A stretch of 64,000 bases of DNA from an uncultured Flavobacteriales bacterium (GTDB lineage: Bacteria > Bacteroidota > Bacteroidia > Flavobacteriales_D > Crocinitomicaceae): the NCBI GenBank assembly GCA_903945495.1, contig CAJAVU010000057.1, positions 1 through 64,000 on the forward strand, in the 5' to 3' direction. Below the pieces are notes generated by a model, which searched no databases, was not told the origin of the DNA, and saw nothing but the letters and a program-made list of their open reading frames with translations. Positions within the stretch are counted from its first letter, which is position 1, and each line of letters opens with the position of its first letter. Position numbers and translations under genes: made by a program. Below are positions 21,931 to 23,535 of the stretch, in pieces.

Positions 21931-21935
21931 AATAG

Positions 21936-21972
21936 AAGAAAAAAAGGCAAGTAAGTTACTTGCCTTTTTTTC
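21936..21972. terminator. Bidirectional terminator
   Basis: A run of A, then GGCAAGT (21946-21952), loop AAGTT, ACTTGCC (21958-21964) and eight T. It serves both the LamG gene and the DUF2892 gene on the other strand. Confidence 0.88.
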
Positions 21973-21982
21973 TTCTTCTTAT

Positions 21983-22186
21983 TTATTTCTTCTTACACGT
22001 ATTGATTCCAAATGGAGCGTATAATGGACAAAAGCTAATTAAACTAGTTAATACAAAGATTCCAGCTAAGGCCAATAATACAATTCCCAATGTTCCTGGA
22101 ATTACTTTTGTAAAATATAACACTGCTATAATTGCTGCAATTATTACGCGAATAACTCGGTCAGCACCACCCATATTTTTTTTCAT
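21983..22186 (-). CDS. DUF2892 (YgaP-like) small membrane protein
   Basis: This 67-residue protein matches DUF2892: GGADRVIRVIIAAIIAVLYF forms helix one and TLGIVLLALAGIFVLTSLI helix two, followed by the family end FCPLYAPFGINTCKKK with two cysteines. In YgaP a similar segment anchors a rhodanese domain; here it stands alone. Its promoter-like TAGGTTTG box and a palindrome GTGAC-N4-GTCAC lie just upstream, next to a Crp/Fnr regulator gene, suggesting direct control. The biochemical role of stand-alone DUF2892 proteins is unknown. Confidence 0.85.
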   Translation of the reverse strand: MKKNMGGADRVIRVIIAAIIAVLYFTKVIPGTLGIVLLALAGIFVLTSLISFCPLYAPFGINTCKKK

Positions 22187-22208
22187 GACGTTTTGTTTTT
22201 TGTTTCTA

Positions 22209-22216
22209 CAAACCTA
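22209..22216 (-). promoter_or_regulatory. -7 promoter element (TAGGTTTG) of the DUF2892 gene
   Basis: An exact TAnnTTTG match on the minus strand, 22 bases before the ATG at 22186. Transcription should start near 22202. Confidence 0.55.
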
Positions 22217-22238
22217 CCATGTTGGTTAACTAAAAACA

Positions 22239-22252
22239 GTGACAAAAGTCAC
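22239..22252 (-). promoter_or_regulatory. Probable Crp/Fnr-type operator (GTGAC-N4-GTCAC)
   Basis: A perfect 5-4-5 palindrome, GTGACAAAAGTCAC, two bases beyond the stop of the Crp/Fnr gene. Its centre is about 43 bases upstream of the predicted DUF2892 transcript start, the usual place for an activator site. The same bases could form a short hairpin, so a terminator role is the alternative. Confidence 0.55.
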
Positions 22253-22254
22253 CA

Positions 22255-22887
22255 TTACAAAATTTCTATGGAATTTGTGTGTTGTTTTATTTTCCCTTCG
22301 GTCTCTAAACGCTTTAAAATTCGAGAAACAACCTCACGTGCTGTACCTAATTCAGATGCTATTTGGCGGTGAGAAATTTTTATAGGATTTTGCTTGGTAA
22401 CACGGATCCGCTCTTCAAGAAATGTGAAAATTCGTTTATCCAGAGAATCAAAAAGTATGTGATTAATGGTGTCAAGCAATTCACTGTAACGTGAGTTGTA
22501 TTGCATGAAAAACAGTGTGTTGATGTCAGGATATTGTTTAATCCATTTCACAACTTTTTCCACCGGAAGCAAAATAGCGCGTGTTTCTTCCTCTGTAATA
22601 GCAAATACTTTACTTGGCTCGTCTTTTAGGCAAGATGAGAAAGACATAACGCAACTTTCCTTTGGTTCAATGTAATACAGCAACAAATCTTTATCATCGT
22701 ATTTTGAGAAAACCTTGATTAATCCATCCAAAACCAATGGAATCACTTTGACATATTGTCCTTCTTTTAAAATCAATTGATTGGCTGGAATGGTTTGTAC
22801 TGTTGCCTGTTCAATGATTTCTTTTATCAATTCTTTATTTAGTAAAGGAAAAGCCTTACGAATGCTTAATTCAGTAGATTCATCCAT
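22255..22887 (-). CDS. Crp/Fnr family transcriptional regulator
   Basis: About 210 residues: a cyclic-nucleotide-binding-type beta roll (about 15-120, with ILKEGQYVKVIPLVLDGLIKV split across strands), a dimer helix, and a Crp winged helix with ISHRQIASELGTAREVVSRI (about 165-185) as recognition region. There is no N-terminal cysteine cluster for Fnr-type 4Fe-4S binding; a single SSC near residue 85 is the only cysteine. The ATG at 22887 is nine bases behind the FrnE stop; a TTG at 22896 is the alternative. It is likely cotranscribed with the FrnE gene and probably controls the DUF2892 gene. Confidence 0.88.
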   Translation of the reverse strand: MDESTELSIRKAFPLLNKELIKEIIEQATVQTIPANQLILKEGQYVKVIPLVLDGLIKVFSKYDDKDLLLYYIEPKESCVMSFSSCLKDEPSKVFAITEEETRAILLPVEKVVKWIKQYPDINTLFFMQYNSRYSELLDTINHILFDSLDKRIFTFLEERIRVTKQNPIKISHRQIASELGTAREVVSRILKRLETEGKIKQHTNSIEIL

Positions 22888-22896
22888 TGTTTTCAA

Positions 22897-23535
22897 CTAT
22901 TGTTCAGAATACACTTTTTCTAAGGTCTGTAAAAATGCTTCTACAGGTTGAGCGCCCGAAACAGCATATTTTCGGTCAAACACAAAGAACGGAACACCTT
23001 GAACACCAATATTTTGAGCTTCTTGAATATCTTGCATCATTTCGTATGCAAATGCATCACTTTCGAGTATCGTTTTTAACTCTTGTGATTCTAAGCCTAT
23101 TGAAGTACCAAGTTCAACTAAATCGTTCAAATCAGCCATGTTTTTTCCATCTGTAAAATAGGCTTTGAACAAGGCTTCTTCCGCTTGATCACCCAAACCT
23201 TTTGTTTTTGCAAATTGGATTAAACGATGCGCGTCTTTTGAATTTCCAACTACAGCGATATCGAAATTATAGTCTAATCCTACATTTTTTGCCATCTGAA
23301 TGACATTGTCATGCATAGCTTTGGAATGCTCTAGTGACATTCCTTTTTTATCAGCCAAGTATTGATAAACATCTACACGTTCCTCCATTTTAGGGATGGT
23401 TGGATCAAGTTGAAAACTCTTCCATTCAATTTGCACATTTTCTGCATGCGGAAATTGTTTTAATGCTGATTCAAAGTGGCGTTTACCAATGTAACAAAAT
23501 GGACACATGATGTCCGACCAAATTTCAATTTTCAT
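22897..23535 (-). CDS. DsbA family oxidoreductase, FrnE-like
   Basis: A 212-residue thioredoxin-fold protein without signal peptide. The active-site motif CPFC lies in DIMCPFCYIGKRHFE (residues 8-22), and the cis-proline loop near the end is GVQGVPFFVFDRKYAVSGAQ (about 175-195), both diagnostic of FrnE/2-hydroxychromene-isomerase-like DsbA proteins. These act as cytoplasmic disulfide oxidoreductases, often in redox stress. The gene sits directly upstream of the Crp/Fnr regulator with almost no gap and three bases after the lipocalin-like gene, so an operon is likely. Confidence 0.88.
   Translation of the reverse strand: MKIEIWSDIMCPFCYIGKRHFESALKQFPHAENVQIEWKSFQLDPTIPKMEERVDVYQYLADKKGMSLEHSKAMHDNVIQMAKNVGLDYNFDIAVVGNSKDAHRLIQFAKTKGLGDQAEEALFKAYFTDGKNMADLNDLVELGTSIGLESQELKTILESDAFAYEMMQDIQEAQNIGVQGVPFFVFDRKYAVSGAQPVEAFLQTLEKVYSEQ

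Follow-up and report, generated by a model that had tools for sequence, protein, structure and literature searches.

A palindrome between a Crp/Fnr-family gene and a DUF2892 gene as a candidate class II operator in Bacteroidota

In the genome of an uncultured Flavobacteriales bacterium (Crocinitomicaceae; assembly GCA_903945495.1), a perfect palindrome, GTGAC-N4-GTCAC, separates a gene for a Crp/Fnr-family regulator from one for a small DUF2892 protein, which raises the question of whether the regulator acts on its neighbor through this site. We analyzed the palindrome in the window, that is, the whole stretch of 64,000 nucleotides at positions 1 to 64,000 of contig CAJAVU010000057.1, and in related Bacteroidota genomes. 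Our analysis indicates that the palindrome is probably the operator of the adjacent Crp/Fnr protein, which would act as a class II activator of one YgaP-like gene and possibly senses reactive sulfur.

Locus, promoter geometry and conservation

The minus strand carries, in this order, a dsbA-like gene, the Crp/Fnr gene (hereafter crp), the palindrome, TAGGTTTG, the DUF2892 gene and a hairpin (Table 1). The palindrome (GTGACAAAAGTCAC at 22239–22252) is present and perfect between the two genes, where the earlier note on this DNA had placed it; it lies 2 nt past the TAA stop codon of crp (22257–22255) and 52 nt from the ATG of the DUF2892 gene (22186), in a 68-bp gap between two minus-strand genes. 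PF11127 aligns over positions 1–66 of 66 in the DUF2892 protein, which is the sole match to this family in the genome and comprises the TM family only, in 67 residues, a rhodanese domain being absent (Pfam). At its other end, crp begins within about 10 nt of the dsbA-like gene (22887–22897), and the two are probably co-transcribed, judging from their spacing. The crp genes of L106, L108, L109, L112, L114 and L117 lie at most 16 nt behind an unrelated same-strand gene. The position of crp looks as if the gene were riding on whatever operon received it.

Table 1. Coordinates of the features of the locus within the window
Feature	Position	Strand	Basis or remark
DsbA-family gene, directly upstream of crp	22897..23535	-	DSBA, E 2.5e-42
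Crp/Fnr-family regulator gene (crp), 213 aa from TTG 22896; alternative ATG 22887	22255..22896	-	Pfam, model
Putative operator, perfect palindrome GTGACTTTTGTCAC (GTGAC-N4-GTCAC)	22239..22252	-	centre 22245.5, predicted −41.5
−7 box TAGGTTTG	22209..22216	-	predicted −12 to −5; box placement from the available portion of PMC9723704
Predicted transcript start (A)	22204..22204	-	sequence and box position in the available portion of PMC9723704
DUF2892 / YgaP-like_TM gene, 67 aa, presumed target	21983..22186	-	PF11127, E 3.1e-23
Bidirectional terminator-like hairpin	21934..21976	.	would end the DUF2892 transcript

Class II activation by Crp and FNR is textbook knowledge, and at E. coli class II promoters a GTGA-N6-TCAC core is centered at −41.5, 29.5 nt ahead of the first base of the −10 element. 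The window has the same two-fold core, a predicted center at −41.5 and the same 29.5-nt spacing to the first base of its −7 box; it differs from the E. coli promoters by its Bacteroidota TAnnTTTG box and by a regulator that falls far under the Crp equivalog cut-off. In the start-site map of Flavobacterium psychrophilum, TAnnTTTG occupies −12 to −5 according to the available portion of PMC9723704, and this position combined with the 29.5-nt spacing predicts a center at −41.5 and a transcript start near 22204. The class II geometry advanced in the earlier note would be exact once the flavobacterial map is applied, its center "around −43" being corrected to the predicted −41.5, and its start near 22202 was close to the position now predicted.

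The geometry recurs across 31 non-redundant loci chosen by their site (GTGAC-like, at most one mismatch), not by helix type. TTTG lies 33.5 nt (17 loci) or 34.5 nt (7 loci) from the palindrome center in 24 of them, against nine occurrences at all other scanned offsets, and the fixed-distance TTTG is missing in the remaining seven; the best site was selected with a bonus for a fixed-distance TTTG, which matters only in loci with several candidate sites. Of the 17 loci in the main class, 15 have a purine at the predicted +1 and 14 a G at −33. These observations support the palindrome as occupying the class II Crp/Fnr operator position of a Bacteroidota housekeeping-sigma promoter with a predicted start.

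Taken alone, the palindrome carries little weight; its place and its conservation are what goes beyond chance. The genome-wide search proposed in the earlier note returned a single perfect GTGAC-N4-GTCAC in all 3,642,191 bases (3.64 Mb), the window's own; with at most one mismatch, the pattern occurs at 31 places in the genome versus 51 for the reversed pattern, that is, without enrichment, and when the window was shuffled 100 times, at least one such match arose in 69 cases. The composite of palindrome, N22 and TAnnTTTG likewise occurs once without mismatch, and its 27 genomic matches with at most three mismatches (one with 0, six with 2 and 20 with 3) are not enriched relative to 32 for the control. 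Over 395 Bacteroidota genomes, the perfect GTGAC composite was found 13 times versus once for the reversed pattern. We rejected a wider regulon of the regulator in its own genome, as there is no second perfect composite and weaker ones are not enriched, and autoregulation of crp, as the window holds no second palindrome with at most one mismatch.

Conservation among relatives with the same gene order, on which the earlier note had staked its reading, was examined in 23 loci that encode a regulator 48–62% identical to that of the window followed by DUF2892 (L044 and L045 among them being near copies of each other). All 23 keep a site with no more than one mismatch, which is perfect in 16 and has a single mismatch in seven; such a site arose in 17 of 11,500 base shuffles of these regions. 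A peptide-pattern search of the genome contigs had yielded four loci, and whole-genome searches were therefore used; the duplicates L001 and L039 were omitted from the locus, spacing, helix and conservation counts, and L010, a short contig without DUF2892, stands outside the 23. The genes flanking the crp–DUF2892 units vary between relatives, L112 and L113 excepted. An unannotated frame of 30–34 residues, which has a common C-x-x-C motif and probably one membrane helix, separates the −7 box region from DUF2892 in L041, L042, L046, L047 and L050 and is also present in L010, where DUF2892 is not seen; it reaches the cut-off of no Pfam family and is missing from the window.

Sister operators and the candidate signal

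A related composite, GTAAC-N4-GTTAC-N22-TAnnTTTG, occurs at 71 sites in 36 of the 395 Bacteroidota genomes, the reversed control giving none. Three perfect copies are found in the window genome, before (i) a DUF983 gene that precedes a paralogous crp, (ii) a persulfide-dioxygenase-like gene and (iii) a rhodanese-like lipoprotein gene followed by a YeiH-like transporter, the names in (ii) and (iii) coming from reading the translations. We scanned with Pfam the 69 sister-site genes for which a downstream frame was available, many of which carry more than one family, and detected Rhodanese in 23, Lactamase_B in 15, OEP in 14, TauE in six, Sulfate_transp in three, DUF983 in three and Prismane in one. 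Among 121 control genes, Rhodanese, Lactamase_B, OEP and TauE are absent from the 25 most frequent families and thus occur at most once each. These controls were 121 of 149 flanking frames, taken from genomes other than those of most sister sites, and excluded all five frames of L113 (which nearly duplicates L112), nine of the longest frames, L118:7375-7776 and all 13 frames of L122, which is not a crp–DUF2892 unit; L122 holds a persulfide-dioxygenase-like gene, so that its omission favors the sulfur reading. The 13 GTGAC composites precede, as read from translations, persulfide-dioxygenase-like (3), rhodanese (1), peroxiredoxin (2), redoxin-like (1), DUF2892 (3) and other genes (3). The neighbors in the window itself include dsbA, for a thiol oxidoreductase, and no other sulfur gene.

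TolC-type outer membrane efflux genes form the third commonest class behind GTAAC sites (14 of 69 genes, for example in L137, L140 and L141). This suggests that export may be part of the response.

The regulator has a Crp-type helix-turn-helix (HTH_Crp_2, 40.6 bits for a cut-off of 27; Pfam), and its cNMP_binding match is just below threshold (26.1 versus 27.5). Its predicted structure (pLDDT 88) has the β-roll and overall fold of CAP, with CAP structures matched at a TM score of about 0.7–0.8. It falls far short of the CRP equivalog model (46.7 versus 266 bits required) and of FtrB, its best NCBIfam match (66.9 versus 211), and the QERSA stretch of Crp, from the cAMP phosphate-binding region, stands opposite nepsk in a gapped part of the profile alignment. 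Instead of the four [4Fe–4S] cysteines of FNR, the regulator contains only the two of ESCVMSFSSC. All 58 aligned regulators share one cysteine, and the profile alignment places this invariant residue beside the cAMP-binding segment of Crp. The nearest solved relative by sequence (6.2e-29) and by fold (TM 0.83) is PDB 3dv8, a Crp/Fnr regulator of Eubacterium rectale, in which a cysteine aligns with that of the window regulator, the two proteins being 27% identical. An alignment of 13 DUF2892 rows (two of them the same protein) also shows one cysteine in every row and a second that is conserved in nearly all.

A further parallel is offered by E. coli, in which ygaP is controlled by the sulfide-responsive repressor YgaV according to the available portion of PMC9774250. 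YgaV, of the SqrR/BigR group, is likewise encoded beside a YgaP-type gene; it differs from the window's Crp/Fnr regulator in being an unrelated repressor that answers to sulfide (PMC9774250, same portion), and YgaP is described as a rhodanese-like enzyme of which the window protein corresponds to the TM part alone. The matches listed from open-licence literature, mainly titles and the starts of abstracts, contained no Bacteroidota Crp/Fnr circuit with sulfide defense, DUF2892 or persulfide dioxygenase.

Because of the sulfur genes behind the sister sites, the YgaV–ygaP pair and the conserved cysteines, we infer by guilt by association that the likeliest signal would be reactive sulfur, namely sulfide, persulfide or polysulfide, sensed through the invariant cysteine, and we give this assignment about an even chance of being correct. 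The signal may instead be redox, NO or oxygen, with DUF2892 targeted for another reason, a possibility that we regard as appreciable and somewhat short of even. FNR-type proteins are often gas sensors, which counts in its favor, as do the single Prismane gene among the 69 and the operator of HcpR2. In the portion of PMC1274295 available, GTAACnnnnGTTAC is the published operator of HcpR2, a CRP/FNR protein of Bacteroides and others, and is predicted for hcp, which alone makes up the HcpR2 regulon in most Bacteroides. HcpR2 resembles our system in being a Crp/Fnr regulator whose operator equals the sister operator GTAAC-N4-GTTAC; the window differs by having GTGAC-GTCAC before DUF2892, and no Prismane gene was found among the scanned neighbors. 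Weighing against a non-sulfur signal, Rhodanese, MBL-fold, TauE and sulfate permease genes predominate behind the sister sites.

Binding partner and mode of action

The recognition helix of the window regulator reads REVVSR, and its glutamate (E) aligns with that of RETVGR in Crp, which is residue 181 (numbering as in PMC1274295); in Crp, residues 180, 181 and 185 touch DNA and their mutation alters specificity, as stated in the portion of PMC1274295 available. A site was found in 56 of 58 relatives, and the third base of its left half is G with E in 33/37 loci and A with V in 19/19. Both halves are G-type in only 28 of the 37 E loci; an A-type half is present in nine, on the right in L006, L010, L041, L042 and L043 and on the left in L015, L016, L028 and L047, and the right half is G-type in two of the 19 V loci. 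This correspondence between helix and operator is a clade-level one, with one or two independent changes on the tree (from which L008, a partial protein, was omitted), which places statistical significance out of reach. The window genome and G493, which has the same layout, contain both pairs, E beside GTGAC and V beside GTAAC; the V paralogue of the window genome (helix RVVISR) has its GTAAC site about 0.5 kb upstream.

This paralogue, at C2, or another Crp/Fnr protein could bind the operator, alone or in competition with the neighbor, which we consider rather unlikely. In six genus relatives (L195–L200), DUF2892 is preceded by an operator-like site that has a TA at the same distance and no regulator beside it, so another Crp may act on DUF2892. 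In addition, the E regulator of L048 has a complete GTAAC-GTTAC site, and E is also found in the one further regulator listed for its genome (G170). On the other side, the paralogue has the RVVISR helix and GTAAC-GTTAC as its likely own sites, from which that of the window is two mismatches away, and the site accompanies a window-type regulator in 23/23 relatives.

The bound protein could also repress, since the palindrome spans −48 to −35, in the place of the −33 element, and might block sigma access. We find this improbable: the operator takes up most of the −33 TTTG element and leaves the G at −33 (14/17), which suits a promoter in need of help, and −41.5 is the textbook activator position of Crp and FNR. 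A terminator hairpin of the crp transcript is rejected as highly improbable: although a scan lists the palindrome as terminator-like with a T-rich tail, only 8 of 31 loci have such a tail and 23 lack it, the palindrome overlaps the crp stop codon in 19, its letters are fixed and not the pairing alone, the distance to the −7 box is fixed in 24, and L048, in which DUF2892 precedes crp, has an exactly spaced site before DUF2892 and not after crp.

In our preferred reading, a dimer of the adjacent Crp/Fnr protein would bind the palindrome at −41.5 of a housekeeping-sigma promoter, touch RNA polymerase and turn on the DUF2892 transcript, which seems to carry that gene alone. No such palindrome is found upstream of the regulator gene; crp would probably ride on the dsbA transcript, with the signal sensed post-translationally.

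Origin of the gene pair and implications

The nearest genus relative, L195, has a DUF2892 protein 97% identical to that of the window and lacks crp before it. Nucleotide homology between the window and L195 breaks off at 22917 and is regained at 22206, next to the predicted start; with L196, it is regained at the start codon. The 22 same-genus genomes listed (including G403 and G802) contain no crp orthologue at E ≤ 1e-50. The sites of L195–L199 are GTAAC-like with one mismatch, L197 and L198 being identical there, and that of L200 is a perfect GTGAC-GTCAC before a DUF2892 gene whose product is only 48% identical. The full TAnnTTTG is kept at that spot in none of the six relatives; the L200 box, TACCTTGT, fits the TAnnTTGY box given in the available portion of PMC9723704.

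A different gene of unknown function is found between dsbA and DUF2892 in L195 and L199, where the window has crp, and a gap of about 110–125 nt separates the two genes in L196–L198. The dsbA–DUF2892 interval looks like an insertion-prone spot.

From these comparisons, DUF2892 looks native to the genus of the window, with crp together with its operator seen only in the window genome. The simplest reading is that crp came with its operator and −7 box and landed before the native DUF2892 gene; crp may instead have been lost in the genus relatives.

We extend this reading to the phylum only tentatively, at somewhat below even confidence. Bacteroidota Crp/Fnr proteins with the invariant cysteine may form a family of class II activators of sulfide and persulfide defense, with sub-regulons separated largely by the E/V helix difference (GTGAC versus GTAAC) and targets recruited when a regulator travels with its operator and −7 box to a native gene.

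The proposed circuit offers a lead on the role of DUF2892. The operator–promoter geometry, mostly fixed across the phylum, supplies a ready set of promoters for testing and a rule by which Crp/Fnr targets could be predicted in Bacteroidota, where few regulons have been mapped.
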